A DNA stretch of 64,000 nucleotides. It comes from Rugalucina vietnamica (Eukaryota > Mollusca > Bivalvia > Lucinida > Lucinidae). How positions within the stretch are numbered: the first letter of the stretch is position 1; every line of letters begins with the position of its first letter. The stretch covers positions 65,515,431 to 65,579,430 of the forward strand of contig OZ024869.1 of NCBI GenBank assembly GCA_964017185.1, in the 5' to 3' direction. Positions 21,901 to 64,000 of the stretch are shown one piece after another. The notes below the pieces were generated by a model that ran no database searches, was not told the origin of the DNA, and saw nothing but the letters and a program-made list of their open reading frames with translations. A program made the position numbers and the translations under genes.

Positions 21901-21981
21901 TTATGAAATTCCTAAGTTTACATAGTTGTCGTTGTCACTCATCATGTCCATTATCACTGAGTGACAGAACTGGTACGCCTC
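21901..21981 (-). CDS. RPTP-like gene: last exon with stop codon
   Basis: The acceptor is cgtgtatttcag, in phase 0. It encodes EAYQFCHSVIMDMMSDNDNY then VNLGIS and TAA. EAYQFCH aligns with the EQYxFCY motif that closes D2 in receptor PTPs. The tail NYVNLGIS occupies the position of the short C-terminal tail that in RPTP-alpha holds the Grb2-binding YANF site. A possible ATTAAA polyadenylation signal lies about 155 bases beyond the stop on the same strand, but this is weak. Confidence 0.9.
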   Translation of the reverse strand, partial: EAYQFCHSVIMDMMSDNDNYVNLGIS

Positions 21982-24900
21982 CTGAAATACACGTATAGTT
22001 ACTTAAAATTTTTAAACTATTGAATGATTTAATATCTTGTCCAGTACTTCGTTCATCGTGATTCCTTTAGTGATTGTGTCGAATTCATCTTTTTCGTTGT
22101 GTTTATACATAGAGAAAATATACCAAAATTAAATCTGGTGTAAGTTAAGAAGCAGTACACATTTTAATGCAAAATTATATTTCTTACTCATATCAATAGT
22201 TATCAAAACACACATCGTGTGGAGCATAAGCGGCAGATAGAATTACAATTAATTCTCTTCAAACCGATGCGGTCTCGTTATTAAAGAAATTGCTGGGGTA
22301 TTTTTGTTCCACAAATACATAAATGGAATACATTTATATTTTATAAATTTATGTATACACTAAGGAATAAGTTAGGGAACACTTTTAGCCCCTGGGGAAA
22401 GTTTGAAAAAAAATGCATTTTTCTTTCGTCTGGCGATACTGAAATTTTAATCACATATATTTCATACTTTGGCCTAGCTACAGACCAATTAATGGAAATT
22501 CACAGACGTGACGCGCGATGTTCGTACAAATTTGTGTAACACAACCTTGACGTTCAATTTGATTTATTTTGCGCTGAGCGATGCATGTAGGTTTCAGGTT
22601 ATTTGATTGTTCGTTTGCAAGTTTGTACTTTCGAGAGTTTTAATATTTCTTCTTTTTTTTCAAGTGATCCTCCTAAACTATTTTTTCTTTCTCCACTGCG
22701 CAGTTCTATTTTAAGAAGCTGAAATGTGTGTTCCAATAAAAGTACGGTATCATGGCGTTCTGTGACGTACATTAACATGCGTTTACGTCAGGTGTGACAA
22801 AATTTCAATCTTGTTAAATAATTTATAAATATAGCATTATTTGTCGCATGGCAATCATTATGAAAATAACATGATTTTAAAGCTTAGAACATGAGCATTT
22901 TAGTAAGAGTATCGTATGTCTTGTTTTATTGCATTAAAATGTCTTTATCTTACAAGAAGGAAGATAACCCACTCAAAAACAACGCAAAAATCGCATGTGT
23001 GACATTTTTTCAGCCAAAAGTAAAGATTTATTAGAGTGAACTTTTCAAAGTACTATAAATATTTCTGCATACATTTCAATCAGCTTTATATGAGCATTTA
23101 TTTGGTATAAAAATTGTCTTACTCGTTAAATTTGTGTAACAACCGTTTATTTTATTTATTTTCCCCAAAGCGTGACACTTTTGGCACCGACTGTTTTTTA
23201 ACTGCCAAAAATGGAAATGCGGTCCGAAGTTAACTAGAATAATGTCATTTATATCTACATGTATTGTCATTATCCCGCCGTATTTTGATGGGATTTGGTT
23301 AAAAAACTTTAGAGATATACGTTTTCTAACCTTTTTAGCAATGCGATTTTGTTACGCGTGACACGCTATTTTGGCGTAAAAACGCATTTTATTTGTATCT
23401 TGTTATAATTTGCGCAATAAAAAAACATGCACGATTGTTGTGATGCAATTGTTCATACGAAGCGGATTATTTTGATATATAAAACATAGATATTGAGCCG
23501 AAACTGAGTTTGTTATTGCGTTTTTACTGATAGAGCAATCATTATTTTAAAATTTGTACGAACTTTGCGCGTCACGTCACAACATTTTGTCTTTGTGCTA
23601 CGGAGGATACAATACGCCATATGTGAAAAACTCCACTTTTACTGAATACAACTTTGCCTTTTTGCTTCTGCACTCTGCAAAACTCATTTTTTTGAAGGCA
23701 AAACAGGAATAAAATGTTGAATCTGATCGTTCTGAATGAATACACGACTTCGGACCTAAAACTTCATGCTTAATCTCAAAACCAACTAATCATACAAAAT
23801 CTTCAGTTTGCATTGATTTCTATGGAAAGCAAACTTCTTGGAAATTTTGCAAATAAAGCCGTAAAAGAATAATTTCGCTAGAACACTATAACCAGAACGC
23901 GCATGTTAAGATTTCTAAAGGGTCATATCGAATATCTGGCCTAACATTTACAACCTGCAAAATGTATACCCAAAGAACAAAACGTGATCATATGAAACCT
24001 ACCCCCGGAAAACTATGGACCTACCGCCAAACAGTCGGTCAGAAAATAAAGAATTTATGATCAAAGTTCAACAAGCAATGTCTCAGCTTTATGCTTACGA
24101 AACATTACGACAATGTGAGTTCAAATAATGAAGTTATCGCAAAGACTAGCAGTGCGTTTCTTAAATTTAGCAAACATTTTCTGAATAAAAGATGGCCGTT
24201 CCCCGCCGCAGTTCTTGTTTGATGCTAACAATTTTCACATAGAAGCAACTTTGGATACTACAGATTTTGACAACTTATCAAAAAAGTTTCATAATTTTTA
24301 AAAAGAAAGATATTCACAGTCTAAAGTTGGTGGTCACATTATTACAGGTGTTCCCTAACTTATTTCCATGTGTATATTTAAGTGGTTAAGTATGAGCTGA
24401 TGATTATTAAAATAATTCATACACTTACAAAGCTTGGTGTAAGATTAGCATTTCTTTCGGTTAGTCGTAGTGTGGTCTCTATTATGTTCACCTCTCCTGT
24501 TAGTCGCACGCGTTGACACTCACACAATACCATATAGAACGCACTGAGCGTGTTCATATGGGACCTTTAAGAAGTTGAACCAAACTTTGAATGAAAGATC
24601 TTTTGTTTCATATTAAAATGAGGAAAGACTAATTAATGAGCAAGATTCATTTAATTTAAAGCAATACATATCCCTGACTATGACCCGTGCATTAGTTTCA
24701 GCAAGGTCATAGGTTAATTTATATTTAGTTTATTCAAGTGATATCAAATGAACAGTGTATACACTATTATGGCTCACGGAAAAATATTCTAATTAGAGTT
24801 GCCCTTTGATAGTCTAAGAATACAATCCTATTTTGAAACAGAACTTAAGTCTGTTGAAAACTTATATGTGACTGTAACGGTTACAAAATGTGCTTTTAAA

Positions 24901-27740
24901 AGAATTATTTAAAACAAAACATAAAAAGGACAAGGCTCATCATTTAAGCTTTGTTTTACTTCATCTAGACTGTTATGTAGGTATCTACCTGTTTATCAGT
25001 AGAACAGGACTTTCTTCGGTTATTTCTGGCTGGCACTTATGAATGGCGCGGATAAATGCTACGACAGATGTAACATTTTGAAGAAGATCATGTTCCCTTT
25101 TCCATTCAAGGAAGTGAACACGTTTTACAGTCTTCACATCTGCGTCAATCTGTGAAAGCGTAGCCCAGTAAATATAAATGCAACATAGAGTCCTGATTGC
25201 GATTATTCTTAATCATTCCTTACTTTTTCCGTTTCAGAGATTTTGGATTAAAGGGATGGCTAGCACTGTTTTCTTTAATGAATTGTGACATTTATTTCAT
25301 AAAGTATCAACAAAATCCGTTGACTTTGAAAATAAAATTTACAGTATAATTGCACTTGTAGAGTCTTGATTTGAAAAGCAAAAATGACACGGTATTGTTA
25401 ACGATGAAACTACGATATTTGTGTTAAGAAATCAGAATTAAATCAAATAGTTGGAGAATATATTTTTGTTTGAATCTTAATTCTAAAAAAAATAAGTCTT
25501 GCAAAAAGGAGAGATAATTATGCGAACCTCCTCCTGTCGTTTGTAGGCGTATGTGTTTATGATATATCCGACTTCCTGCTGAGTGTCCAAAGAACGCACA
25601 GAATAAGACTTGATATCGGGAGTTGAATCATCGATCGAAAAGTGCTGTAACCATAATCATTGAAAATGAAATAAGCCTGTGAGAATCAAATGAATATTTC
25701 CGGTTAGTCAATCCTACCTCATTAGTACGAAAACGACGTCTAATGTCACTTTTATAGCTTTTTTGACCGGACTTCAATTGGTGTAGGTATAATCTGTCAT
25801 TCACATGGATTTTGAAAACTGAAACTACAATGTGTAGCAAGCAAAATGTACAAGCAGGCAAAGATCAGGAAAAGGCGCAATCAGAAAAAGATTCCCACAC
25901 CAAGAACCGAGGTGGGAAAAAACTTCCTAAACTTAACTAAAAATATGAAAACATACATAAGGCGCCAACAGCACAAAAATTTAAACACCAAGACATAAAA
26001 CAAGAAGAACCACAACAGAAGTATATCCTTGGAACGATCAGTAACACACAATTACTGACGGGCTTAAACCCATTTTACATGGCCATAACCTCATTCTCAG
26101 TTTCTGCAGTGATTCATAACATTTACACTGTAGTTAGTTCTTCGGTCCCCGTGGTGAATCTCTAACTAGTCAATGAATCATCAAGAACAAACCAATAAAT
26201 GATGATAAAAATCATGATGAATAAAAAAAACAAGACGCACAGATTGAGTAAGCTGCCCTACGATGGAGATCCCTGGGCGCCGAATAACTTAAAATACAAA
26301 CTCCGGAGCAAAAGAAAAACACCATTTGGACCCCGGTGAGCCAAGCAAGAGACAAAAAGCTCCGACCCCAACCAACTAAAATGAATAACTTTAAGTCGGG
26401 GCCATCATAGAGTCCGACACCCAACCCACCGGCGTGCAATTAAAGAAGGCAGCATAATTATCAACCATGATTGGGTTAAAACTACGCATGCAGACTGTCG
26501 CATAACATTCAAGTTATAACCTATACGTTATAGAAGCATCATAGGCGTAGAGGCTAAGCCATTCGCCTTATAAAACAGGGGTCGTGTTTTAGCTATCGGG
26601 AATCTCAAGTTATTTTGATAAGTCTTCAAATCGATGTCCCGTCTCCATATGACATTAGCTGTTGAATTGGACCATTTTTTTCGACACTGACTCTCTTAAA
26701 CGCATTTAAACGTCAAGTACCTTAACTTGCATTTACGATGATTGTTGTTGCCTTACCATGCTATCTGCATACAAACTGATGACAGTTTTAATTTTCTTGT
26801 CCTCAATTACTCTCCAAAGGTCAAAGGTAGCCGTGTTAGTGTCATCCATACAGGCGAGAATGTACGCATTTTGGTTTGCGTGATTCTGTAATTTAAAAAC
26901 AAAGTTTTATAGATTATTCATGGCAAAAATAGTTCGTTCTATTACATGTAGGTGAGTGATGCTGTTGATATTCAATATCTACATATTTGAAAGGGATATC
27001 TTTGTTTTAATTTTGTTTTGAGATAAGCATTTGTGTATTATGATGTTTTTCATCTTTTTCGACAAACATGTTCATACCGGAAGGTAGAAGAGCTGTGTTT
27101 GTGTTCTAGATGTATTAGGTACGGCTAGAGCTTTGCTGTTTGTTTTTTCTGAAATAATGAAATACTCCTACTGAATGAATATGAACAAGCGAAATCATAG
27201 AAATTATATCCCCCGCCTAGATTGTTTTAGTATGCAAACATAATCTGAGAATAAGGTATATCCAAACCACTGTCTAATTGTAAATACCTGAAAAACGACT
27301 GAATTCTACATGTAAATGCTAAAAATGATAAAAATATGAGCCGCCTCGTGGAAAAACCAACAATGTGGTTTCCGAACAGGTCTGACACAAACCGGCCTGG
27401 GCAGTCATAGAAGCAGGCTAGAAGCTTGAAATTTTGGATTTAGAAAGAAGAGGAATTGTACTAACCGAGTAGCGACAACAAAGGCGCTGATCAGCTTCGC
27501 GGTTACCGCGAAGCTGATTTGCGCCTTTGTTTTTGCCTATGCAGATTGATGGTTTTCTCACGAGGTGGCTCATATATATTCAAACCACTTGCACATCTTC
27601 AAAGCATAGTTTAGGCACCGTAAAGTAAAGTAAAGAATCGGCATAAACTGAAGTGTAAGAGGAATTGTGCACATAACGTACCAAATGTCCATTCACTTTC
27701 ATTGTCAAAATGCTCGAAAAACGACTAAGTTAAAATTGCG

Positions 27741-27775
<35 letters not shown>

Positions 27776-30700
27776 GTCAAATATTAAACTGAGGATAGCA
27801 TCAAAACCACATGCACATCTTCAATGCACAATCAAGACATCCGTAAAGTTTCAAAAGACTCGGTATACAACTGCAGGAGAAGTTAAGCAAAAACGATACG
27901 CACTGTCCATTCACTTACATTGTCAACTTGCCCGCAAAATGACCGAGTTCAAATTACGGAAAAAAGTGTCAAACATAATTTAAGGATTATATTCGAATAA
28001 CATGCACATCTTCGAAGCATGGTGAAGACATTGATAAAGTTTCAAAATAATGGGAATAAAACTGTAGGGGGTGTTGCGCACACAAGGTACACACTACTAT
28101 AGTGGGGCGGAAGGACAGACATTCGAAATGACAGGATGACAAAAGGACGGAAGGAAAAAAAGCAAAAAAAAAAATACTATGTTCCGCCGCTTTTCTTTGA
28201 AAAAAAAAAAAATAAAATAAAATAAGACAAAGAATAGAATATCGTCGATAATTGAACATGTCGCTGGCTATATGAGATCATTTAGAAGCAAATAAAATTA
28301 TATTGTCCTTATAATTTTACAACACAATAGTTAATTTGATTGGTCCAATTAAGATTAGTTCAGTATGTGAATGAAACGCGAAATATTAGGAAGTGATCGT
28401 ATACACACGAGAACCATGTTGGAACTTCACTGATTTTGACATCTATAGGTATAGGTAAACGATGAAAATGTGCTTTTGAAAATGCCTTCAGATGGAATAT
28501 TTACAAGAAACTCGGGTATAAAGTTATTCGTTTCTTTTGCGCTCAGTTACAAAATAATTGTACTATGTCATTAAGATGCGACTGTGTCTGTTGTACTGAC
28601 GACGGTCCTTTTCGTGTTTTTCTTTACACTAAAATGCAGAACACAAGATGTTAGAATTTGAATAAAAACTCACTTTTTGTGCTGTACGGAGATAGATATT
28701 TAGGTCCCTGGTGACTTTCTTGCAAATCCAAGTATTCAGGGTCGCTGCCAAACAATGCCTTAAAAGGTATCAAAACAGATTCCAGTCATATCATGTAAAT
28801 GTGATATTTTGATTAACCATCGATTTGGCAATATCAAAACATAGTGTGGTTTTTGTAACAGTTTACTCTTGGAAATACTATACCGCACCTATCGTTCGAT
28901 TCCTAGCTGTGACTGATACAAAAACTAGCGGTCGAACTATATTTAATTAAGTGACCACTTCGTTACGTTTATCTTACATCCATGCCATTCTATGATAATA
29001 TTTAATATGTAAGTATTTTGTTGTTGTTGTTGTTGTTTTTCCAAATAAATAAGCTCATGGTCTAGTTTTGCACATTCTTACGTTCTGAAGTAAGAAAAAA
29101 TGACTCAAAATGACAGATGCATGTATTAATAATATAAAGTTAAAGATGATATACGAACAATGTACATTCGATAATTCCGATTTAGAATGGTAGTCTGCAC
29201 GAAAGTTGATGCAATTTTCATTTTAACGTACAAAGTGTGTAGTTAGTTTATCGAGATAACAAAGGTATATAAATGTAAGGGTTATAATTTAAATAGAATA
29301 AATCTCTTGCTTGACTTGAGTGTGTGTGTTTATCATTATATCTATTCGACGAAAAGTTTTTGCCAAGCCTCGTAAGTTAAAGACACGAATAAAATTAAAG
29401 TGGACGCATGGATATGTTGCGAAATAATACCTACTTCATATTGTAAAGATAAACCAGTTCGTTCTTTGAATGGGTCCTCTGTCAGTAGAGCTGTGAGAAA
29501 GCTTGAAAATTCTTGGGCACTGACTGGACGAGCTCTGATGTGCAGAGCCTCCGCAAGGAGCTCATAAAGAAGCCCGTATTGTTCCTAAAATCAGACGAAC
29601 TAATTTCGAACCTTGGCCAAGTAAGTACAATCATGCAGTTAATTCGAGTTCAGTGTAACTCCTTTTATGACACACATTTACTGACACTGTCCGAAATTGG
29701 TTGTGCTGCTTATTATATATGAATTATTTTATACTTGTAAAAAATGACAACATGCACTACAGGCCCTGTACAGTGTAACCGCTTTATTTTAGCTACCTCA
29801 CAAGTAGGTCATTCATGATTCCTTGATTGTAAGAGGCAGAGCCATGAAAACACACACACATTGCTTACAGATTTGTACATAATCTGTGCTATTAATAGCA
29901 CCTACACATTAAGAATCACTGCACACTTTTAAATGCATGGTGTTCATAGTTAATAACTTTCAGCTGTTACAACAACAAAACATTCTATCTTTCATGTTAA
30001 TGCAAAGCTTTTGCAATGCTACCAGACTTAGATGCATAAAACTTGCATTACCGCCTGACTGTACAAGAAAACCATACTTTCCGTTACAAAATTAATGATT
30101 CTGTTTCCAAGAAGATATTTTTGACTAGTAAGCATGTTCTGTTTACATATGCTAACACTACACTGGTAATGCAATTTCCATGCATGACCAAACCAGGAAA
30201 TTATGCCAAATGAAAATTGTCCTTGATTTGTAAACACAGAAATTGGCTGAGTGACCTTGATTTGATCTCATTTTAGCCAATTCTGGTTAGTGTAATTATA
30301 TGTGGTAGGGCACATAATACTATAATTATGATCTTAGAATTATGACATTTTGTAAACTTTCCCACGATAATGCTTAAAACAATACTCTATGGGGAGTTTT
30401 TTTTCCAGACTGGTGGACATGCCAAAATGCATGTTTATAATCAAATGCACCTGACTATGCGGACATGCCAAAATGCAGCGTTATAATTAAATGCACCTGA
30501 CTATTTGGACGTGCCAAAATGCAGGGACAATGTTATAATTGAATGCACCATACAATTACTGGCAAATGAATAAAAAATAACTTTAAAGCATGATCAGGAA
30601 ATAAAGACCGTTGAATGCTTGTTTTACATCTTAATTGATAAAACATGCAAAGTATTGCGATATCGTTAGACAAATAAAACAAAAAGAACTTGCTTTGGTC

Positions 30701-33700
30701 TGTAATTGAATTCTACGCTGACTGCATATTTGTCTTATGATTTGACGGGGGTTAACATATCTCTCCGCGTTCGCCTGTGTGTACAGAATGTCCAGTGCCA
30801 AATACAAATCAACGCCCCCATCATCGCTACAAAGATTCATACAGAACTCGTGATCATGAGTAAAACTTTACTCACAGACTTTACAAATGCAACTATTGCA
30901 TTATCAATTCTTTTTGTCAGAATGCAGAATTTTTCCGAAAAACATTTGTTGAACTGAAAAGTACAATAGGTCTGATTAACTTTAAGGGTCACTGATGAAG
31001 GTTGATAACCCGAAATTGTACAATATGGCCCACCTTCTCTCTTTGAATGTTTTACTGCTTCCAAAAGATCTAACAATTATATTTTATTTGCTATTACTGC
31101 AGCTGGTGTTGTGCCGTGTGGCGGCCCTAAAAAGTCTCCCCGTACATCATCCATAGTGCAGATTATATTTTTCTTTTGATCCTTTGAGATCAGTGAAAAT
31201 ATTTGGAGTATTTCAAATATATTGTTTGTTAAAAATACCAATCTTAACAGAATTTAGAATATTTGGCCTCTTTTGGAATATTAGTCTTTGATTTAGACTA
31301 GACTTGTGTAAATTCTAAAAATTGCAGCAATCATGAATGTCTGGCTTTCGCTGCCAGTTTTGTAAAGGGTCACTGATGAAGGCTGATTACCCGAAATTGT
31401 ACAATATGGCCCACCTTCTCTCTTTGAATGTTTTACTGCTTCCAAAAGATCTAACAATTATATTTTATTCAGTACGAACTGCCAGTGTCCGTGATTAACG
31501 CCATGCAACATGATTTCAAGTGTTACACAAAATTCAAGTGTGTTTGCTCACAAGAATATGGTAATTTTCCTCTGCGCCTGAAACAGTTTCGATGGGTTAT
31601 AATTAGCTGTTGTGTGGATACCGCTAGCCAACGTTTAAATTTCAAATATTTTCCAAATCAACGTGTAACACGTTGTGTTTTACGCTGCAATGCAATATAT
31701 GGAAAACAAAGAAGCGGTCCTTAAAGTATTTTGCTGAGTATATTTGACAAGCAGCCAAAATACCTTCCATGGACAAGTATTTGCCCTTCGTGAGCTTTAC
31801 TGATTGAAGTTCTCCAGAACTGAATAAAGCTATTTCGACCAGAATGTATACCACTTGCAAGGGATCCGTTGAATTGCATTTGTGTTACATTCCTTCTCTG
31901 CTGTTTTGGCTGGAACAAATTCATAAATAGAATGTTTTCAAGTATGCAAGCCACTGTAAGCAAAAGTTTTAAAATGCATGGCTTTATTAGGAAAAACACG
32001 ACTGTCACGCGCTTGTTTTTCATTTTAAATGATCAGTTTACTACTAATGCAACATGGTACTACAAATTAATAGAAAATAAGGTATGTTTATGCAAGTATT
32101 AATAATAATTATTATTATTTTTTTATTTCCAATATACAATGTATCTTAAACTTATTATGATTTTTTTCTCTCCTCGTACAGGATGTTCACATTATTAAAT
32201 AGTGAAACAATTTATTTGCAAGGTTTTAAGTATTTGTCTGCTCCGTAATGTTTATCTTATTACTTCCGCTTGCCTAACGCATTCAAAAATTAATTAGCTA
32301 GCTGATGTTCTCGTTTATGGTAAAATGAACAAAAATAATGAATGTATGCATACCTTGGATACTTCGAATTGCCGTGTAACAAAGTCAGTGTTTGTTTTGA
32401 CTTTCACAGTCTTGACAGTTATATTTCCGTATTTTGTCTCCCCTTCGGCTGCCCAGTATTGCATATTTTGAGCCTGAAATAGAGCTGTTGTGTCATAGTG
32501 AACATTGAACGGTATTCATCTCAATCTATTCATTAACATATATTTGCCTGACCCACGATGTCGTGTGATCAATCGAACTTCATTAACCCATATTTGACGA
32601 ATGGATTCTCCCATCATTATCGATTGGGTGAGTCCACTTTCATTTTTAGGGGCTTCGGGTGCGATTTTAAAATTTTATTGAAATTTTCGATGAAATTTCT
32701 CTAAGCAAACAGAAAAGCCCCAGATGGGACGCCGCATTTTGCGGCGTCACATCTGGGGCTATGCTGTTTGCCTATGTCCCATAAAAAGGACGCCAGGCTT
32801 AAATGAGTTAAACCAAAGTATACAGAGCAACAGAGCAATCTAAGTTCTCCTCTTGAAGCGTAAGCGCAACGTCACAGACGTCCTGTTATAAAATGAACAT
32901 TATGCCCGTTCGTTTTGTACAAATAAAAATATAATTCCTAGTGTTAGTGAAAATCTGCGAAATTGGTTTTTAACTGAAAGGGAGTATGATATAAAAGTAT
33001 GATGTTTAACTCTAAAGCAAAAGCAAAAAAAAAGTAAAATAAAACGTCGTTACTCAGCTTGTCTGCAGCTAACGATACGTAATATATCATTACAAATTAC
33101 ATGTACCTTCCCATGTGTTTCGTTTAACATTATTATCAATGATACGTTGGCCTGATAGATCATTTTCCATAACTCATTTTCCTCTGTCTTGTTTGAAGGC
33201 CCTGACGATAAAAATAGTATCGTTAATTTGAAAATAAAACAAAAACGCAATGTAAACAATGAGAATGAACGTTACTACTCAAAATTTGATAGACATAGAC
33301 ATAGAAATTTTATTTTTTGTCGAATATTCACAAACATGTAACATAAGCCCAGTAGTGCTTTTATTTCGACAAACAAGAGTAAAACAACATGCAAAAATAT
33401 CACAGCATGCAATAAAAAACAATACGTACAATGAACAAATTAAGAGAAAAAATACAGAATATGAGGTATATCACAGCATGCAAATTTTGTACATAAAAAT
33501 ATGTCTTTTTTAAAATAGTTGAAAAGAACTGTGGACATGACATCAGTACCGATGCTGATGCCTTTCCCTGCTGTACGGGCAGTCCACACGAGCCTGGGAA
33601 AGACAGCAGCATCAGTAGAGTGCACGAATTGCTACTTTTATGTTGCCTAAGATGAAATTTTAAAATGCAGTGGAAGTAAGACTCAAGTTATTCACAAGTA

Positions 33701-36700
33701 TATAAAGAGAATAAATTAAAGCACACAATCATACAATTTGAGACATAGGTGGCAACAATGATGAACCAGCCTGGCTATAAAGATCAGCATCAAGTATTTA
33801 TTTTAAATTCAATACAATACAAAGCGCATCGAGTTTGATCCAAAAATAATGACAATGCACAAGGACCAAACTGTCGGCCTCATTTGATTTTTCTTAAATA
33901 ATGCCTTGAAGTTTCTGGCTACAAAAAATTTGAAACAGGAAATGGCCTTCCATAGCCCATTGAGCCATTTTAGCATTTTTCGAAAGGTCCTGAAATAATG
34001 GCATTTTTCAAAAAGTCCACAGGAGCACAAAAAATCGACTAAAAATTGATTTCTTAAGGAAAGTCAGTCTGAAGTGCATTCTTACATATGTGTGCAGTGC
34101 GAGATGAAAGCTAGCTTGTAATGATCATGTGTGGGCCAATTTTCAAAGGAAGCACTGCTTTTGTCAAAATTCAAATTTTAGAAGAACTGTTCAACGGAGT
34201 TCGGTAGGACAGTTCTTGTTTCAAATTTGTTTTAGTCGGTAGCTTCGAGACATTTTCTAACAAAAACAAATGGGATTGTCATTCTTGCTCTTTGGGATTT
34301 GCCATTAAATTTGGGTGTGACCCGGTGTGTTTTACACTGTGCTGTATGGAAAATAATATTTGATGCTTATCAAATTTTGAGTAGTATATATCAGCACTGC
34401 AGGAGCTCTATTGAGAGTCTCAGTTAACGATACAATGTTGATATGCTTGTTTGTATAGGCAGTTGCTCCAAGAAAGAAGCCTTACTTTAAAAAAAAGTCG
34501 GTCAAAGGTAAAGACATTATCATACTGGATTTTTGAAAAAGGAAAATACATATGCCGATAGAAAAAAAGAGAAGCGTGAAAAATTGTAGTGTTTGCGATA
34601 TATAAATTATGATAATTGTTTCAAAATATTCAAGAGCTTTTTTCTGTCAATAGGTCTAGGGAAGACACTGCCTACCACAAAATAAGGAAAACGGACTTGA
34701 ACACTGAGCTCGTGTTTTAGGTAGAGTGGATTCTGCCCAGATTATAAATTAGTTTGCGACGTTGGTCCGGACATTTGTGAATTCAATTCAATGTACCTGT
34801 TGCAGCTATGTATCTTCGGCTCTTGTCGTATCCCTGAAGCACGAAAAGGGAATAAGCTTTATGACATTAAACCAGATTTTTTTTATCTTATTTCTAACAT
34901 ATTTTGCTACAAGGTTGTGCTACAAGGTCTTTCAGAATCCGAGTATTATAGCGGCAAGTTGTATGAACGTAGACAAGTGAAATAACAGATTATTGTCATA
35001 AAATTACTCCGGTCCCTGAGGGGTCACTCGTGTGCATTTTCTTTGCTTAACTTGTTGATCGTTACACTCTTTGGAACGTCATAATAATCCAAATTATGCT
35101 AAGGTATGTCGTTACATAAGGAAGTACGTATAGAAAATTAATTTACTGGTTGTAAAGGCACAAAGCAACAAAATGGTCTTCTGTACCTACTGACAAAGCA
35201 TCTCCTAATCATAACAGTCAGTTTACCTCTTTTTCAAATACGTATGTAAGAGAACATTTGAAACTGAAACAGATATGGATCCAGATCTGACAAACGTCGC
35301 CTTATGACCGAAAGTTCAAAGTTAAGATATAAATAACACGTGAAAGACCAATTTTCACTGCGTATTTCCTGAACGTTTGAAGAGATTATCTTTACACATA
35401 GCAAACATATGAGCGCGGAATGGGGTGAAGTTGATGCAATCTTATTTTTTGAAACTTGACGTCATGAAAATTGTCGAGATGGTATTTCGACGTTAATGAC
35501 GTTAACTTCTTTATATCACTGTTACAGTAATGAAATGAAGACTAGAACTCTCAAAATTCAACATGTTTCTTGATATTCAACATCTATACCTCTATGCAAT
35601 AAGCACAAATTCAAACACCGTTTGATAAAACATACATAAGAAAAAGCGTACCTGTTTTTTAAACTGAGGGCACACCTTTTGGTGCAATGCCTGCCATGTA
35701 AAAATACATTACATCAAACAAATATCTTTGTTTCATAAGAAATATATTTGTTTTGAATTACCTTACAATACTAAAGCAGTTTGAATATAAGTGCATTCCA
35801 AATATTTCAAATTCTGATGGTTTTAAAATTTTGATAGCATAAAATGTACTTGAACGCCCGAAGACCCCTTTAGTCAGAATCGTGCTAAAACATGTACGTG
35901 TCCACATCTAAATGAATATGAGCCATGTAAGTATATCTACATGAAGCACTGATAAATCAATTGTGTAATTTAAAGTGATTGCCTTATTGTACAGCGTGTA
36001 ATCCTTTACTGTAAATGTTTAACAATGCAAACAAAGAAATTTGCATGATTTGCATGCTGTTTTAGTAGCAATTTGCATGATTATACAAGGGAGGTTTTCC
36101 GAAACCCATTAAAATGGAATCGCAACCAATTTGAGGATTTTTTCAATTTTCTTTCTTTTGTTTTATTATTTTATCATCAGTTTTTTATTCAGTTTTACGT
36201 CTCTTTCAAGATTATTTCAGCTCATATGAGACGGGCCAAACGGTAGGTGGGGCGAAAACGGTAGATCCCCGAGAAAAACCACCTGGCACACCCGCAAGCA
36301 GAACTTGGCTTGTCTCACATGTGGCCAGTTCGGGACTCGAACCCACACCAGACACAGCGATGAGATGATCGAGTGATTAAAAAACAGCGCTATTAACCGC
36401 TCGGCCACGGGGGCCGCCTTATCAGTTATGTTCAGATTAAGGCATAATCGCATTACATTTAACAATTTTCAAAATCTTTTTACTCATTTTATGAATTTTG
36501 GAATGCAAAAGGATGGTAACATTTTACACTTCTTGTGTGTTTCAGAACAAGGCAGTATGAAAATATTGAAAAGGGTTGCTTCCAAACTACATTTCTGACG
36601 ATGGAGATCCCTGGGCGCCGAATAGCTTACTGAAATTCGGAGCAAATGAAAAACACAAGTTGAACTCCGGTGGACCAAGCAACAGACAAGTAGCTTCGGC

Positions 36701-39700: not shown

Positions 39701-42700
39701 AGATCCACCGGGGCTAAATCGGGGATAAATGGTGCATTCCGTAGTCTTTCGTATCTTATGAAATAAAAAAGTCGCCGATGTCTATTACGATCGATGAGCG
39801 GAGTCTTCGTGAAAAATCCGATTTTCTTCAATGTCAAATCCCGACCGTTTCGTCCCTGTGTCTCCCGCTTTCGCGATCGTTATTAATGTCCGCGCGTCCT
39901 TAGCCTATCCCTGTGGGACATAAGACTCCTCAGCATTCTCTTTGTACTTTCCTTGGGCTTCAGGAATTTCCAAATGTTGGTAGGAGTTTAGCCTGCCCTT
40001 TTGACACGCTTGATTACCGCGCGCTGCTCCGTACGTTCCCGAGACGTCGTTTTTCTACGCTCGAAAATTCGTGAAATCAAAACTCGTAAATGTATATTAC
40101 GATCAATGAACGGATGGTGTTGTCTTCATAAAACATCCAATTTTCTATAATGTTTCTTCCCTAGGGCTCCCGCTTTCGCGATCGTAATTAATGTCCGCGC
40201 GTCCTTAGCCTATCCCAGTGGGACACAAGACTCCTCAGCATTCTCTCTGCACTTTCCTTTGGTTTCAGGGATTTCTAAGGGTTGGTATGAGTCTTGTCGG
40301 CCATTTTAATACACTTGATTACCGCGCGCTGCTCCGTACATTCCCGCGACGTCGTTTTTTTTACGCTCGAAAATTCGTGAAATCAAAAATCGAGAATATA
40401 TATTATGATCGATGAGCGGATGGTGTTGTCTTCGTAAAAAATCCGATTTTCTATAAAATGTCAAACCCCGACCGTTTCTTCCCCAGATCTCCCGCTTTTG
40501 CGATCGTAATAAATGTCCGCGCGTCCTTAGCCTATCCCAGTGGGACAAAAGACTCCTCAGCATTATCTATGCATTTTCCTTGGGTTTCAGGAATTTCCAA
40601 GTGTTGGTGGTGTCTTGTCTGCCCTTTAATCACACTTAATTACCGCGAGCTGCTCCGTACGTTCCCGCGACTTTACGCTCGAAAATTCGTCCATGTTTGT
40701 CTTAAACACTGTCAAAATTGTTATTTTTAAGTCATCACTTAGCCTGGCATTCAGGTTATGTATTTAGATATATTTCTCTCTACCAGATAGTCTTAATTCT
40801 TACTGAAAGGTACATAACCAATGAAGGGCTATTACCTTGGTACTTTATTACTTTCCCATTAGCTGAAATACATCACTAAATCTGACTTTGATAGCAAATA
40901 GTTGCGTTCTGAATCTGATGGACATTTCTTGACTTTTAAGTGTTTGTCAAGTGATATTATTTTATTTAGTGGACTGATACCAGTCTAGTCATCACTCTGA
41001 ATCTGTGAAATTGAATTAGAATACTGTTGATATGACATCATGCAAAAAATCACGCCGTTGTGGCGCCGTTTCATAAAGGAATTGACAGCGATTTAAAACA
41101 TCAAAAAATTCGAGTGAGATTTTTTTCAAAGTGTCCCGTATCCTCGTATATTCCGTATGCTAATCGACATTTTAAAACAATTATTGCATTTTTTCTTAAT
41201 TTATCCGAAAAATTAAGGAAATATCTAAAAAAAATCATAGAGAGTGGACGTCAAATATTTTTAAAATGAACCAGCCCGGGAACTTTCGACTGTACCTCGT
41301 GCTATATTACCTCGAACTCTTCACTCAATTTTTGAGAATCATTCTGATACAGTGACTGTACATGATGCCACAGTTGTTCGATAGCGATGGCCTCAGTCTC
41401 TTCGATATCACTTATTTCCTGATGGACACCGTCGCTTGTGTGTTCATCTTCGTCTAGAGGAGAAAATAGTCAAGTTTGTATTGTTCCATCTTGCTATAAT
41501 TGACCAATGTGCTATGATTCACTGTCCGATATTTCAAACATCATTAATGTTAACATAACACGAGTGCATGGCTCCCGAATAAAACAAAATTGAGAGTTTA
41601 ACATTGCATCATTTGCCAGATTTCAATACATATTGGCAAACTTTGCACACCTTGTTCTACAATGGAAGCGAAATATTCACAAACACGTAATTCCAACATT
41701 TATCAATACCACTTACATGTACCAATTGTAGTATTTGCGTAAGTATGATCAGCTTTCAAGTCGTCAGACTGTGTAGATGCTGCTCCATGCTGATACAGAA
41801 CCGTCCCCTCTCCCTCAAATCGCCTGGGTGTGCTTAAAATATATGTTTCCACATACCGTAATTTTTTGCTCAAGTCAAATATAGTGGACAAATGTAAAAA
41901 GAGGCATTTTTACTAGTTCACCTCAATCTAAGATAGGTTGATGTGTATACCAAACTAGGCAACCGTATACTCATGATACTAGTTATAAACATTAACAACT
42001 TATCAGTACTACTGGAGTGATGTTAAACATCATGACGATAATATCCAAACCCACTCCCGGAAGGTACACATATGCAAATATAGAAGCTTTCATGTATAGT
42101 ACGAGTGCCACACTGCAATAACGGAAATGCAATTACTACACACGGACGCAATATATAATTAAATGCGTGAATAGGAAAAAAAACAATATTGAACATTAAT
42201 TGAAATGCCAGGATATTTTATGTGAAGGTTACGGAACATATTTTGCTGGTCGACAGGTCGACGGAAGCCAGATAACCTCGCATGCGTGAAACATAAACTA
42301 GGATATACGCCATACTGAGTGGTCAAAGGGTGTTCGAGGGTAGTAATATTTTGTTGGTGGACAGTTTGATGGAAGCTAAATAAATGCACATGCGTAAAAT
42401 ATAAACGAGGGTTTAGTAAAGCGGTCAATGGACTTTGGAGGGAAATTATGTTTTGCCGGTCGACCGGTCTACCGGACGACGGAAGTTAAGTAACCATGCA
42501 TGTGTTCAACATTAACAAGAATATACTCCATGTTTCATGATGAAACATCACGTGACTTAAATTGATTTTGAGTACAAGTATTCGGAAATAACCAGTGAGC
42601 AAATTGGCCATAGATTTCGTAACAATTAATGAAATTCCATGGGCTAAAGTGCACATACCCTGGCATACTAAGTTCTAAGGTGTTAGTCAACAGACAGATT

Positions 42701-51700: not shown

Positions 51701-52174
51701 CAAAGGGATATCATAAATTGGCGTGGGAGGGTATGTTTAGTTTTTGTGGTCGACAGGTCATTGGAAGTGAAACATTGCGCATTTGTGCAAAACATAGGCA
51801 ATCATTGGGAAGGACGTAGGTAAAGTTCAATGTAGGAGGTAATGATTCACAACGGAATGCCTGGGTGCAAGCCCCAAGATCGATCCCCGCAACAGAATGA
51901 ATATACTCCATTGATAGACATGTTTCCGAAAGTGGTCACAGGCAGTATCGGTTGTTTTCATCACTTAGGAGGAATCAATAAGGATGGTCCGTCTTGATTT
52001 AGATTTAGACTCTACAACGCATGCGCATTATATACTTTATCGTCGATATGTCGACCAGCAATTTAGATACTCATTACTCGTACGTGCGTACGTGATTAAA
52101 ACCTACAGCGCATGCGTATTATATACATATTCGTCTATTTTATGACCATTCCGTAGATCTGTTTTTTTTTTCTT

Positions 52175-52223
<49 letters not shown>

Positions 52224-52542
52224 GAAGCTTGTGTAGGCTTGTCCCCTATAGTTTAAATTTTCTGATCATATACGGCACGAGTCAATTTACAAAGAGCACA
52301 TACGAAATATATAATAGATCAAAGTTTGTCAAAGTAGTAGCCAAGTCACAGATTTTACCGTCACTATTCCAACAGCAAAGCCTTGCGTTTCACGCATTGA
52401 AAGTCTCAACTGGCTTACCGCTTTCGCTTGCACCACAGGACGACGAAAATACAAATCATCACAAAAACTATTGCTGCTAACACTGGTCCAAGTATGATGA
52501 CTATAGAGGAGTCTGCGCCAGGGAGCTGCTCTGACTGAGATT
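21901..52542 (-). CDS. Receptor-type protein tyrosine phosphatase-like gene with two inactive PTP domains (multi-exon, 5' partial)
   Basis: Fifteen minus-strand exons were joined by hand: 52419-52542, 41717-41832, 41311-41453, 38959-38992, 37868-37941, 35652-35690, 33107-33201, 32354-32473, 31764-31909, 30694-30826, 29435-29584, 28674-28758, 26757-26885, 25528-25644 plus 24989-25149, 24429-24564 and the last at 21901-21981 (TAA). Codon phase agrees at every junction except 35652/33107 and 28674/26757. The order is transmembrane helix, juxtamembrane region, PTP domain D1, PTP domain D2, short tail, as in receptor PTPs. Recognisable family motifs are NYID, QGP, LWKMIY, YWAAEG, QTKEQYGLLY (D1), and FDLWRVIE and EAYQFCHSV (D2). 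Both active sites are lost, so hydrolysis of phosphotyrosine is unlikely; a scaffold, decoy or dimerisation role is inferred. The signal peptide and ectodomain are not seen. Introns are up to 10.6 kb and full of repeats. Confidence 0.85.
21982..24428 (-). other. Last intron of the PTP-like gene
   Basis: 2.4 kb, AT-rich, with no recognised repeat of length. A short open stretch around 22030-22090 (minus) has coding-like composition but poor splice sites, and phase already fits without it. Confidence 0.7.
24429..24564 (-). CDS. RPTP-like gene: D2 exon with erased P-loop
   Basis: The acceptor is acttcttaaag and the donor is a consensus gtaagt. Joined to the previous exon it reads LLIN-R-SHMNTLSAFYMVLC where functional or pseudo D2 domains have VVHC..G.GR(S/T)G.F. 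None of Cys, Gly or Arg remains. The continuation GEVNIIETTLRLTERNANLT matches the VDVFxxVxxLRxxRPxMV helix. It exits in phase 0 into EAYQFCHSV. Confidence 0.85.
24989..25149 (-). CDS. RPTP-like gene: D2 exon with degenerate WPD loop
   Basis: The acceptor is cgctttcacag and the donor is gtagat. It encodes 53 residues plus two bases, with VKRVHFLEWKREHDLL where D2 has VxxFxFxGWPxxxxP. Trp is kept, but Pro and the acidic residue are replaced by Lys and Arg. It ends EESPVLLIN, the strand that leads into the P-loop. The two spare bases AG combine with G of the next exon to make Arg. Confidence 0.85.
25528..25644 (-). CDS. RPTP-like gene: D2 central exon
   Basis: The acceptor is gattatggttacag and the donor is gttcgc (weak); both ends are phase 0. 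It encodes 39 residues: HFSIDDSTPDIKSYSVRSLD then TQQEVGYIINTYAYKRQEE. The pattern of a strand ending in VRSLD fits the region after YWP..EG in D2. Placement rests on phase and order more than on strong motifs. Confidence 0.75.
26215..26450 (-). repeat. Dispersed repeat R2, second copy
   Basis: It shares GATGGAGATCCCTGGGCGCC, CAACCAACTAAAATGAATAA and GCCATCATAGAGTCCGACAC with the copy at 36570. It is intronic, next to an R1 copy at 25856-26130. The small minus-strand frame here is not a gene. Confidence 0.7.
26540..26670 (+). mobile_element. SINE family 3 fragment
   Basis: It has GTAGAGGCTAAGCCATTCGC, then CGATGTCCCGTCTCCATATG and AGCTGTTGAATTGGAC. The B box is poor. It is intronic, 90 bases below the D2 exon at 26757. 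Confidence 0.6.
26757..26885 (-). CDS. RPTP-like gene: D2 exon (FWR...V..IVML equivalent)
   Basis: The acceptor is aaattacag and the donor is gtaagg; both ends are phase 0. It encodes 43 residues starting NHANQNAYILACMDDTNTAT and continuing FDLWRVIEDKKIKTVISLY. This aligns with the D2 segment AYI..Q.P...T..DFWRLV......VVML. The next exon follows without the usual YWP..EG sequence, so that motif is either degenerate, on an unseen exon or deleted. Confidence 0.85.
27338..27571. mobile_element. MITE with GAGCCGCCTCGTG termini and strong inner hairpin
   Basis: GAGCCGCCTCGTGGAAAAAC at the left matches the inverse of the right end with few changes. Inside, 27478-27530 forms a near-perfect hairpin with arm ACAAAGGCGC..AGCTTCGCGG. 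Elements with GAGCC...GTGAGAAAACC ends are, from memory, very common in bivalve genomes. It is intronic. Confidence 0.85.
28674..28758 (-). CDS. RPTP-like gene: linker and D2 N-terminal exon
   Basis: Acceptor ataccttttaag and donor gtgagt give phase 0 in and one spare base out. It encodes ALFGSDPEYLDLQESHQGPK then YLSPYSTK. The PEYLDLQ segment sits where D2 domains begin with an EFxxL helix. A closer downstream acceptor (tttggcag) would break the phase, so the upstream AG was chosen. The spare base does not fit the next recognised exon (phase 0 in), implying an undetected exon between them. Confidence 0.65.
29435..29584 (-). CDS. RPTP-like gene: D1 C-terminal exon (EQY...)
   Basis: The acceptor is cgtctgattttag and the donor is gtaggt; both ends are phase 0. 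It encodes 50 residues starting EQYGLLYELLAEALHIRARP and ending ERTGLSLQYE. QTK-EQYGLLY matches the conserved QTxEQYxFLY Q-loop region and final helix of PTP domains, and the tail is the D1-D2 linker. An open frame of similar length on the plus strand is a shadow of this exon. Confidence 0.9.
30416..30553 (+). repeat. 46-bp tandem repeat, three units
   Basis: GACATGCCAAAATGCA starts at 30416 and 30462 and a variant starts at 30508. Each unit also has TTATAAT.AAATGCACCTGA. It lies in the GC-AG intron of the PTP-like gene. Confidence 0.9.
30694..30826 (-). CDS. RPTP-like gene: D1 exon with remainder of degenerate P-loop
   Basis: The acceptor is gaatctttgtag and the donor is a non-canonical but recognised GC type (AAA then gcaagt). 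The first base completes AGC, giving VHG-S-DDGGVDLYLALDIL where active PTPs have VHCSAGxGRTGxFIALD. Neither the P-loop Arg nor the preceding Gly pattern survives. The rest, ANAERYVNPRQIIRQ...QLQTK, matches the helix and Q-loop lead-in (VxxVRxxRxxMVQT). It exits in phase 0 into EQYGLLY. Confidence 0.85.
30985..31470 (+). repeat. Second copy of the ~380-bp tandem family (intronic)
   Basis: AGGGTCACTGATGAAGG starts at 30985 and 31366, a period of 381. The block GCCGTGTGGCGGCCCTAAAA lies between them. It is in the intron separating the two P-loop exons of the PTP-like gene. Confidence 0.9.
31764..31909 (-). CDS. RPTP-like gene: D1 exon with degenerate WPD loop and start of P-loop
   Basis: The acceptor is gaatttgttccag and the donor is gtattt. 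It encodes PKQQRRNVTQMQFNGSLASG and continues to EGQILVHG with two spare bases. The stretch VTQMQF-NGSLASG aligns with VRHFHF-xGWPDHG, so Trp, Pro and the general-acid Asp are replaced. GQILVHG aligns with GP(I/L)VVHC, so the nucleophilic Cys of the P-loop is Gly. Phase agrees with the exons on both sides. Confidence 0.8.
32354..32473 (-). CDS. RPTP-like gene: D1 exon with YWAAEG (YWPxEG) motif
   Basis: The acceptor is atttcag and the donor is gtatgc; both ends are phase 0. It encodes 40 residues starting AQNMQYWAAEGETKYGNITV and ending VTRQFEVSK. This corresponds to the C..YWP..EG...YG.I.V segment and the following VRxFxV strand of PTP domains. Proline is replaced by alanine in YWP, an early sign of relaxed constraint. 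Confidence 0.9.
32583..32811. mobile_element. MITE flanked by TTAA with central hairpin
   Basis: The termini read TTAACCCATATTTGAC and, inverted, TTAACTCATTTAAGCCT. A near-perfect hairpin at 32716-32760 has the arm AGCCCCAGATG..ACGCCGCA. TTAA edges suggest a piggyBac-type target site. It is intronic, 110 bases from the exon at 32354-32473. Confidence 0.8.
33107..33201 (-). CDS. RPTP-like gene: D1 exon equivalent to QGP...FWRMIWE..V..IVML
   Basis: The acceptor is tttttatcgtcag and the donor is gtacat. After two completing bases it encodes PSNKTEENELWKMIYQANVS followed by LIIMLNETHGK. This aligns with the PTP core segment in which a Phe-Trp-Arg-Met motif precedes a buried beta strand ending IVML. 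The exit phase is 0 and agrees with the next exon. The incoming phase conflicts by one base with the 39-nt exon at 35652-35690. Confidence 0.85.
35652..35690 (-). CDS. RPTP-like gene: probable 39-nt D1 microexon
   Basis: The acceptor is acatggcag and the donor is gtacgc. In phase 0 it encodes ALHQKVCPQFKKQ. Between NYID and the following GPSNKT it supplies about 12 residues before QGP, which is the spacing seen in PTP domains (DGY...TQGP). The next exon, however, needs one spare base and this one leaves none. A one-base length change in its A6 run would repair the phase. So either the exon is real with a frameshift or assembly error, or another splice arrangement exists. Confidence 0.5.
36190..36418 (-). 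mobile_element. tRNA-derived SINE, family 1 (Leu/Ser-like head)
   Basis: Read on the minus strand it starts GGCCCCCGTGGCCGAGCGGT (A-box type) and has GTGGGTTCGAGTCCCG (B box). The body has GCCAAGTTCTGCTTGCGGGT, GTTTTCGCCCCACCTACCG and CATATGAGCTGAAATAAT, and the end is GACGTAAAACTG. Other copies are at 8921, 56311, 57421 and 62015. Confidence 0.9.
36570..36790 (-). repeat. Dispersed repeat R2 (SINE-like)
   Basis: GGAGATCCCTGGGCGCCGAA, CCAACCAACTAAAATGGATA and ACCATCATAGAGTC recur in order at 26215-26450, and inverted in part at 9230-9340. No gene. Confidence 0.7.
37868..37941 (-). CDS. RPTP-like gene: D1 exon with NYID motif
   Basis: The acceptor is tttctttactgcag and the donor is a consensus gtaagt. 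It encodes 24 residues (SHEEVSRPEGVKG then QHFNYDANYID). The end corresponds to the NDYINANYID segment of PTP domains. It exits in phase 0. It does not contain the phosphotyrosine-recognition KNRY sequence that normally lies 20-25 residues earlier. Confidence 0.85.
38959..38992 (-). CDS. RPTP-like gene: 34-nt microexon, D1 N-terminus
   Basis: The acceptor is ttctttttcag and the donor is gtaaga. It encodes SIMMLLDAQER plus one base that joins CC of the next exon to make Thr. The phase agrees on both sides, which is the main support for such a short exon. It follows EEFE, where receptor PTPs have a variable helix. The usual KNRY motif of D1 is absent here and in the next exon. Confidence 0.65.
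39434..41300. mobile_element. Mariner-like non-autonomous element with internal tandem repeats
   Basis: The left end is CGAGGTACAGTCGGAAAGTT and the right end is the near-exact inverse. TA is present at the left and TG at the right edge. The TIR resembles that of the copies at 12957 and 46921 (CGAGG...TCGGAAAGT). The centre holds about three units of 305-323 bp. It lies in the intron between exons 41311-41453 and 38959-38992. No transposase was recognised. Confidence 0.8.
39776..40700 (+). repeat. Tandem array, ~305-323-bp units, about 3 copies
   Basis: CGCGATCGTAATTAATGTCC (or a close variant) recurs near 39871, 40176 and 40499, each time followed by GCGTCCTTAGCCTATCCC and CTCCTCAGCATT blocks. 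It is CpG-rich compared with its surroundings and includes ACCGCGCGCTGCTCCGTAC. Open frames in it repeat with the units, so they are unlikely to be genes. Confidence 0.85.
41311..41453 (-). CDS. RPTP-like gene: juxtamembrane exon 2 leading into D1
   Basis: The acceptor is ttctcctctag and the donor is gtaata. After two completing bases it encodes 47 residues, starting EDEHTSDGVHQEISDIEETE and ending NDSQKLSEEFE. The acidic linker followed by SEEFE matches the start of receptor PTP D1 domains, where an EFE/EFxxLP motif precedes the catalytic fold. The donor lies only 11 bases from the right terminus of a mariner-like element occupying the next intron. Confidence 0.85.
41717..41832 (-). CDS. RPTP-like gene: juxtamembrane exon 1
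   Basis: The acceptor is atattttaag and the donor is a consensus gtaagt. It encodes 38 complete residues beginning TPRRFEGEGTVLYQHGA and ending DHTYANTTIGT, plus partial codons at both ends. The segment is polar and follows the membrane helix. The Tyr-Ala-Asn-Thr motif fits the pYxN pattern bound by Grb2-type SH2 domains, which is a motif-level inference. The outgoing single T joins AC of the next exon to make Tyr. Confidence 0.8.
42235..43620. repeat. Degenerate satellite with GTCGAC core, ~100-150-bp spacing
   Basis: The core GGTCGACAGGTCGACGGAAG (or variants) recurs near 42249, 42357, 42458, 42999, 43132, 43258, 43410 and 43552, commonly followed by GCATGCG. Single related units appear near 46620, 49150 and 51750. 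It is intronic, with no gene. Confidence 0.8.
43990..46130 (+). repeat. GAGCC-family element with ~465-bp tandem array, four units
   Basis: It opens with AGCTCACCTGAGCCGAAGGC, then CCGTCCGTC runs. The block CTCTGAAACCGCT (or variant) recurs at 44103, 44569, 45033 and 45497, periods 466, 464 and 464. Each unit has TTTTATGTGGAGC, CCAAGATGGCC, TGACCTTGACCTATTTTAC and AAACATAGGCTTTTACATGG. It closes with CAGGTGAGCG. It is intronic. Confidence 0.9.
46921..48133 (-). mobile_element. Non-autonomous mariner-like element, copy B
   Basis: It has the same TIRs as the element at 12957-14547, in the opposite orientation, flanked by TA. Shared internal blocks include the GACGTCA segment near 48000 and the TTCATCAAATAATGCAGCAA block near 47240. 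About 250 bases near the left end (46951-47200) are a different repeat, inserted directly after the TIR. It lies in the long intron before the transmembrane exon. Confidence 0.8.
46951..47200 (+). repeat. Dispersed repeat R1 inserted in mariner-like copy B
   Basis: It contains GGCGCAATCAGAAAAAGATT, a GGTGGGAAAAAAC block, CAATAGGTGGCCACTCAGTT and GAACCACCACAGAAG. The same ordered blocks occur at about 5360-5660, 19860-20215, 25856-26130 and 37985-38280, all in plus orientation. No coding capacity was recognised. Confidence 0.75.
48855..49045 (+). repeat. Degenerate minisatellite of GTACCCACG / GGCCAAC motifs
   Basis: Short units such as CGTACCCACGTGGGTCCAAC, GGACCCACGTGGATTGCC and GACGTCGTACCCACG recur about every 15-25 bases. 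Single related motifs are near 46800 and 48360. Small open frames on both strands follow the repeat and are not genes. Confidence 0.65.
49945..50628. mobile_element. Mariner-type MITE flanked by TA
   Basis: The left end CTGAACAAAAAAAAGAAACG and the right end are inverse copies over about 30 bases (one indel), continuing as GCAACAAT, with TA on both sides. Subterminal GAAAATC.. blocks are also inverted. The element is 684 bp and has no transposase frame. Confidence 0.85.
50731..51580 (+). repeat. ~147-bp tandem array with GGAC-rich end
   Basis: CCGTGAAATATAG starts at 50761, 50908 and 51054, with a variant at 51203 and a shorter unit after. Units carry GGGCACCGGGTTAAGGTGCG and CTCGCAGCTATCTCTGATGT. 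The array ends in GGACGAACGAACGGACGG and a hairpin built on TATCGCACC / AGGTGCGATA; a TATCGCACC also opens it. Open frames here are translations of the repeat. Confidence 0.9.
52171..52222 (+). repeat. Poly(T) tract
   Basis: A near-pure T run, about 200 bases on the 3' side of the transmembrane exon (minus sense). Confidence 0.95.
52419..52542 (-). CDS. RPTP-like gene: transmembrane exon
   Basis: The acceptor is ...tcatttag and the donor is gtaagc. It takes two bases to finish the incoming codon and leaves two bases (CG). It encodes a short extracellular stretch (SQSEQLPGADSS), then a hydrophobic helix of about 25 residues (from IVIILGPVLAAIVFVMIC through IFVVLW), then a basic CKRKR stop-transfer sequence, so the side coded downstream is cytoplasmic. 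The outgoing phase fits the exon at 41717-41832 exactly, giving CKRKR-TPRRF. The preceding ectodomain exon, which must end with one spare base, was not recognised in the 11 kb upstream. Confidence 0.8.
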
Positions 52543-63559: not shown

Positions 63560-63780
63560 TAAGGGGAGACACAACTTACTTTGATTACATGAACTGCCCT
63601 GCCATCCTGGCAAACAGCCTGGGTTCTGACAAGTCCCTTGCGATCTCTCACATGGCAGAGTGTCACTACAGTGGCAGAATTCCTGACAATGTACGCCAAA
63701 ATATCTTGAAGGACAACGCTCTGAAATTCAATATTCTGTTCAGGATGCAACACAAAATTGCTGCCTCTAATGCGATGTAA
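63560..63780 (+). CDS. Possible terminal coding exon, unrecognised
   Basis: After a pyrimidine-rich stretch ending GAGCTTGAG, the frame reads RGDTTYFDYMNCPAILANSL and continues to KIAASNAM and TAA. Base composition and codon use are more GC-rich and more gene-like than the flanks. I do not recognise the protein. The opposite strand is also open over much of this interval, which weakens the call. The words GCAGAGTGTCACTACA recur, with one change before them, at the very end of the window, so a duplicated exon may follow. Confidence 0.3.
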
Positions 63781-64000
63781 ATATGTTATGCTAATATATT
63801 TTAGTATCTCATTTTTTTTTATAATTAAACAAGTATATTCGATAGGTCCTTGGTTTACAGTTTTCAAACTTGTAAGTTCCCGAATTTCCATGTCCATATT
63901 GTTATTTCTATTTGTCATTCGAAATTTAACTTTGCCTACGTGATTGAAGAACTCTAGAACATTTTCACTCTAACATAAAACATGACAGAGTGTCACTACA

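Follow-up and report, generated by a model that had tools for sequence, protein, structure and literature searches.

The window, a 64,000-nucleotide stretch of DNA from Rugalucina vietnamica, holds on its minus strand (21901..52542) a gene whose two protein tyrosine phosphatase (PTP) folds, D1 and D2, are both pseudophosphatases by motif. A twin of this gene lies nearby, and the two copies as a pair have evolved under purifying selection. We put at about even the chance that the gene encodes a real single-pass receptor of the tandem receptor PTP (RPTP) type, which would dock and dimerise instead of acting as an enzyme or a trap.

Exon structure and domain layout

The exon chain, whose introns were read by hand from the transmembrane (TM) exon at 52542 to the stop at 21901, comprises 18 exons and 644 codons (1.93 kb from TM exon to stop). 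All 17 junctions are in phase, and the frame has no internal stop and a single stop at its end. Every splice dinucleotide is kept, with 16 GT donors and one GC donor (AAA/GCAAGT). The exons are, in order of transcription:

52419..52542, minus: TM exon (SSIVIILGPVLAAIVFVMICIFVVLWCKRKR); twin C1:65393244-65393121
41723..41823, minus: juxtamembrane exon with HTYANTTI; twin C1:65389088-65388988 has HSYKNTTF
41311..41453, minus: wedge exon (EAIAIEQLWHHVQSLYQNDSQKLSEEFE); similar exons in genome stretches L018 and L022
38959..38992, minus: short D1 exon in place of the KNRY exon (SIMMLLDAQER); twin C1:65387318-65387282
37868..37941, minus: D1 exon, DYINA region (NYDANYID)
34797..34833, minus: D1 exon GYDKSRRYIAAT
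33107..33201, minus: D1 exon GPSNKTEENELWKMIYQANVSLIIML
32354..32473, minus: D1 exon MQYWAAEGETKYGNITVKTV
31764..31909, minus: D1 WPD-loop exon (QFNGSLASGIH), ending in P-loop ILVHG
30694..30826, minus: D1 P-loop and Q-loop exon (SDDGGVDLYLALD ... LQTK), with the GC donor
29435..29584, minus: exon with the end of D1 and the D1-D2 linker
28674..28758, minus: first D2 exon (GPKYLSPYSTK)
27078..27148, minus: D2 exon, DYINA region, strongly diverged
26757..26885, minus: D2 exon AYILACMDDTNTATFDLWRVI, 129 nt, the length of the exon of paralogue C68
25528..25644, minus: D2 exon HFSIDDSTPDIKSYSV, with a weak donor GTTCGC also in the twin
24989..25149, minus: D2 WPD-loop exon (FLEWKREHDLL ... PVLLIN)
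24429..24564, minus: D2 P-loop exon (SHMNTLSAFYMVL)
21901..21981, minus: last exon, C-tail DNDNYVNLGIS and stop

The ends given in the earlier note, 52542 as the first base of the TM exon (52542-52419) and 21901 as the last base of the stop codon, agree exactly with this chain, as does its description of stop-free exons with good splice sites. Its 15 exons, ~1.6 kb of coding sequence and in-phase state of most junctions were undercounts.

A profile search that allows for splicing recovered D1 with 106 bits and D2 with 37 bits on the minus strand. Maxima over dinucleotide shuffles (24 per region) were 23.8 bits for D1 and 23.9 bits for D2; the plus strand of the same regions gave 16-18 bits and other parts of the window 19-26 bits. 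Several minus-strand exons of the gene were found with the PTP consensus, and Pfam scans of single frames, covering parts of the minus strand, detected no PTP domain. A PTP profile run on the joined exons, the check proposed with the original observation, bore it out: Pfam PF00102 (Y_phosphatase) matched the spliced protein in two stretches with 152.9 bits (E 1.4e-44; cut-off 20.9). D1 alone (117.8 bits) and D2 alone (45.4 bits) had already exceeded this cut-off in the first gene model. By profile, the gene is a member of the classical PTP-fold family; by its layout, with transmembrane helix, wedge, D1, linker, D2 and C-tail in one frame, it fits a tandem receptor PTP. The TM exon reaches a 19-residue hydropathy of 3.17, the next best value being 0.96.

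Several candidate exons were rejected along the way. The exon first chosen for the D1 pTyr loop (39482-39401, minus) belongs to a dispersed repeat with at least 40 genome matches (of 177 candidates, itself included). This repeat (39371-39510, minus) carries acceptor and donor sites and mimics an in-phase PTP exon. The next exon of the gene has only two genome matches, itself and one place in the twin gene. Comparison with the DNA of that place showed the true pTyr-loop exon to be 38992-38959, 34 nt long; it is the top-scoring exon of its phase in the interval and has a 37-nt counterpart in the twin. Exon VIKYQ (40851-40836) was dropped, and D2 exons 26103-26056 and 25644-25573 were replaced by the single exon 25644-25528, which the twin bears out. 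The single-frame open reading frame 63538-63969, considered as a P-loop, overlaps an EGF-like exon in the wrong frame.

Repeats are found in the introns and elsewhere in the window. A 382-nt unit is repeated 3.1 times at 9879-11045, and a relative of it lies at ~31080-31200, in the intron that separates the D1 WPD-loop exon from the P-loop exon. Other introns carry tandem repeats of 464 nt (3.9 copies, 44087-45880), 147 nt (5 copies, 50748-51477) and a ~305-nt unit (three copies, 39847-40681). By eye, tRNA-like stretches resembling SINE heads lie at ~36400 and 62240 (minus), and the open frame 16735-17436 (plus) presumably resembles a Tc1/mariner transposase.

The gene probably continues upstream of its TM exon, where the candidate exon is:

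63580..63720, minus: EGF-like exon (RCPSRYFGVHCQEFCHCSDTLPCERSQGTCQNPGCLPGWQGSSCNQ), phase 1 in and 1 out, putatively of the window gene

This exon lies 11 kb upstream of the TM exon on the same strand and is phase-compatible, so that the two may be joined. Its Pfam scores fall just below the cut-offs (DSL 23.8 against 24.2 bits). A second copy, 91% identical, lies ~20 kb upstream of the window edge (L011:214-351, minus), and a partial, altered copy adjoins that edge (L009:4-48, minus).

Active-site motifs, the twin gene and paralogues

In D1, the pTyr loop KNRY is absent, its exon being shortened to SIMMLLDAQER; the WPD loop has become GSLASGIH, and the P-loop (HGSDD-GGVD) is one residue short and has neither Cys nor Arg. 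The Q-loop QT is retained. D2 has WKREHDLL in its WPD region, and its P-loop, INRSHMNTLS, aligns ungapped with that of PTPRS, with Asn for Cys and Thr for Arg. As far as motifs can tell, the CX5R signature, the WPD acid and the D1 KNRY of a catalytically active PTP are all missing. The earlier note had reported the lack of the WPD acid and of the P-loop Cys and Arg in both domains; all of this is confirmed, and the D1 KNRY is lost too. A six-frame search of the window found no other PTP-like CX5R P-loop or WPD exon.

The genome searched comprises 1.09 Gb in 47 contigs and contains at least 153 matches to PTP exons (247 candidates, of which 150 were scored); gene models were built for those loci whose DNA was retrieved. 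Protein search of this genome revealed the twin gene (C1:65393244-65303778), ~0.14 Mb away and 52-80% identical per exon. It has 18 of 18 exons, an open frame of 642 aa and all splice dinucleotides, including the GC donor, and matches PF00102 in two stretches with 185.1 bits. It shows the same dead motifs, with 19 of 22 D1 catalytic columns identical to those of the window gene, and its active-site exons lie at matching places with high identity.

Three further paralogues were compared. nbrA and nbrB (C1:65.12-65.14 and 65.20-65.23 Mb) are on the same chromosome and strand as the window gene, and C68 (C1:68.06-68.09 Mb) is on the same chromosome. They share its D1 exon plan and phases, two of its exons being fused in nbrB and C68, and by pattern seven EGF-like exons precede nbrB and two precede nbrA. 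Unlike the window gene, all three keep KNRY, WPD and an intact HCSAG(V/I)GR(T/S)G P-loop in D1, which is 32-34% identical between the window gene and nbrA/nbrB. D2 is degenerate in nbrA (L029) and C68 (L020/L031), the latter keeping the Cys with Lys at the Arg place (HCLNGAQK). In the DNA stretch examined for nbrB, D2 was not found (25.5 bits, the null level); the search profile had the D2 sequences of C68 and the window gene among its members, and these scores are therefore not independent.

Since the neighbouring paralogues keep intact D1 motifs, the dead D1 is the derived state, and the degenerate D2 of nbrA and C68 shows that the dead D2 is old in the group. In the D1 tree, window gene and twin are sisters with full support, set apart by a long stem (1.45 changes per column); the nearest rows are the EGF-type paralogues nbrA and nbrB, with weak support (66/43). 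Because the twin shares the dead motifs and pairs with the window gene in this tree, the loss of D1 catalysis most simply predates their duplication. The D1 tree places nearly all change since then on the window copy, 0.29 versus 0.002 on the twin.

Some D1 columns do not vary among nbrA, nbrB and C68. Of these, the window gene retains 3 of 17 in the catalytic set versus 37 of 70 in the remainder (p 0.013), and the twin 4 of 17 versus 41 of 70 (p 0.014). When six references were used, omitting C6a and C6b, the fractions are 3/15 versus 16/31 for the window gene (p 0.058) and 4/15 versus 20/31 for the twin (p 0.027). The fold seems to have been kept by selection while the active site was lost.

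Selection on the pair and on the window branch

Over 641 codons, the window/twin pair has dN 0.153 and dS 0.324, a dN/dS of 0.47 (bootstrap 0.37-0.60). By maximum likelihood the ratio is 0.535, and a value of 1 is rejected (LRT 19.82). Among the segments tested, the wedge exon has the lowest dN/dS, 0.23 (0.07-0.64), which would suit an interaction role for the wedge; its role in RPTP dimers is described as disputed in the excerpted literature. The ratio is 0.42 (0.26-0.70) for D1, 0.49 (0.31-0.77) for D2, 0.50 (0.16-1.65) for the linker and 0.71 (0.37-1.35) for TM plus juxtamembrane region; the 14-codon C-tail, with dS 0, is uninformative. In the 15/18-exon table, the juxtamembrane exon 41723..41823 shows dN 0.47 above dS 0.22 between the twins (ratio bootstrap 0.92-8.83), and despite this the YxN and both tyrosines are kept. 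When both copies were simulated neutrally, a mean of 15.8 stops arose, with at least five in each of 300 runs; none is observed.

The window branch alone is less decisive. With saturated paralogues as outgroups, maximum likelihood gives an LRT of 0.36 against a ratio of 1; if the two copies are given the same neutral time, dN/dS is 0.67 and the LRT marginal (3.49). Polarised differences number 27 on the window side and 20 on the twin side, 82 being unpolarised. Along a neutral window branch (0.27-0.34 per codon), 7.4-9.2 stops would be expected, and 1 of 2000 and 0 of 2000 simulations had none; 6.1-7.7 splice-site hits would also be expected, with probabilities of none of 0.0022 and 0.0004.

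The earlier note had argued that a neutrally decaying pseudogene should carry stops, and this argument holds for the window branch. It had also named a dN/dS near 1 as counter-evidence: such a ratio is rejected for the pair, and for the window branch by itself not decisively. Its wider suggestion, selection for a non-catalytic role, is favoured by the pair ratio, by the open frames of both genes and by the six-frame search of the window, which showed no intact P-loop or WPD exon; the dN/dS of the window branch alone does not decide the matter.

Proposed function, rival explanations and known systems

In the reading we prefer, an ectodomain with EGF-like repeats, itself probable, would sense a ligand or a neighbour, the wedge and PTP folds would self-associate or pair with active sisters, and tyrosines outside the folds (YVNL in the C-tail, YANT in the juxtamembrane region) would, once phosphorylated, recruit SH2 adaptors, Grb2 for example. 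The C-tail YxN reads YVNL (YVNLGIS) in the window gene, YANL (YANLEIS) in the twin and YVNV in nbrA; the C68 C-tail has no YxN motif. Of 29 tyrosines, 26 are conserved between window and twin proteins. Each of the two proteins has five YxN motifs, three lying within or next to the folds; the motif count is therefore not special, and docking is put forward as a proposal and not as a statistical result.

The PTPRA tail carries the motif YANF, whose likeness to the window tail is a lead only. PTPRA has a wedge before D1 and a short C-tail after D2 with one tyrosine, Tyr789, which when phosphorylated recruits Grb2 (excerpts of PMC7959691). PTPRA differs in being catalytically active, and the best sequence matches of the window gene are PTPRS and LAR, not PTPRA.

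Could the window copy instead be a young pseudogene, or a copy losing constraint, with the twin carrying the function? Its longer branch in the D1 tree, its Pfam score below that of the twin (152.9 against 185.1 bits) and the failure of maximum likelihood to reject a ratio of 1 on its branch point that way, and a recent loss of function is possible. We nevertheless consider this unlikely. A disabled frame or disabled splice sites, by which a decaying pseudogene is recognised, are absent from its sequence: no stop or frameshift is present in 644 codons and the splice dinucleotides are kept, against the 7.4-9.2 stops and 6-8 splice-site hits expected had it been neutral since the duplication. 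Only a recent loss, of at most ~0.1 neutral substitutions per codon (estimated on the first gene model), would escape. That the active-site exons were mis-chosen and that the gene uses intact ones instead, as alternative splicing might allow, is scarcely credible to us. The first-chosen D1 pTyr-loop exon did prove to be a repeat; still, the six frames of the window hold no PTP-like P-loop or second WPD exon, and the twin has the same dead exons in place. The possibility raised in the earlier note, that intact active-site exons had been missed, is countered by the twin, which confirms the active-site exons with their dead motifs.

Other rivals accept a functional receptor and differ in what its dead domains do. 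Binding phosphotyrosine proteins without cleaving them, the trap of the earlier note, is very improbable. The Q-loop QT of D1 and, by profile, the PTP fold are kept, but Cys and Arg are gone from both domains, and D1 has in addition a P-loop one residue short and no KNRY. It is established that PTPs hold the phosphate by the Arg and the pTyr loop (also stated in excerpts of PMC7320164), and the trap is disfavoured because both are gone. Rather doubtful, though less so, is a competing pseudo-receptor on the PTPRU pattern, whose D1-D2 surfaces would bind and shield partners or substrates of active sisters, with no part for phosphotyrosine docking. Active-type paralogues of the same exon plan on the same chromosome and strand, and dN/dS below 1 in both D1 and D2, are consistent with it; against it, D1 identity of only 32-34% to nbrA/nbrB makes common surfaces questionable. 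The dimer partner or scaffold proposed in the earlier note fits best among its suggestions, as a possible role.

Of known systems, the closest in kind, though by sequence not in family, is human PTPRU. Excerpts of PMC7320164 describe it as the one human RPTP whose two domains are both pseudophosphatases, its catalytic Cys being present but blocked, and suggest that it acts as a scaffold. It resembles the window gene as a tandem RPTP with D1 and D2 both pseudophosphatases and with non-canonical pTyr and WPD loops; it differs in keeping Cys C1085 and Arg R1091 and in having WPE and GSRQ (PMC7320164, same excerpts), whereas D1 of the window gene is without Cys, Arg, WPD and KNRY and has a shortened P-loop. 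PTPRU belongs to the R2B family, and an EGF-type exon lies upstream of the window gene. Against PDB sequences, D1 scores 168.7 bits with PTPRS and 88.7 with PTPRU, with PTPRS, LAR and alpha all above PTPRU, so by sequence comparison the window gene is not R2B kin. PTPRN and PTPRN2 have a single PTP domain, unlike the window gene. They share with it the state of receptor pseudophosphatases, being listed as such in the excerpted literature. Among the papers searched, none was listed as describing a molluscan receptor with tandem pseudophosphatase domains.

Returning to the docking and dimerising receptor, we tentatively suggest, as a possibility that we hold with some doubt, that window gene and twin form an independently evolved pseudo-RPTP class within an expanded EGF-type family. 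Both domains would have been dismantled before the duplication and kept as protein-binding folds, signalling only through dimerisation and conserved YxN docking and tuning active sisters from the same chromosome region. Another PTPRU-like case, more complete and apparently of independent origin, would show that a receptor PTP can persist wholly without catalysis, and a selected twin with active-type paralogues nearby would offer a natural experiment on the PTP fold, the wedge and the C-tail by themselves. Because oyster hemocytes reportedly express more than 40 receptor-type PTPs (excerpts of PMC13070813), dead RPTP members could matter for the tuning of signalling in mollusc immune cells.
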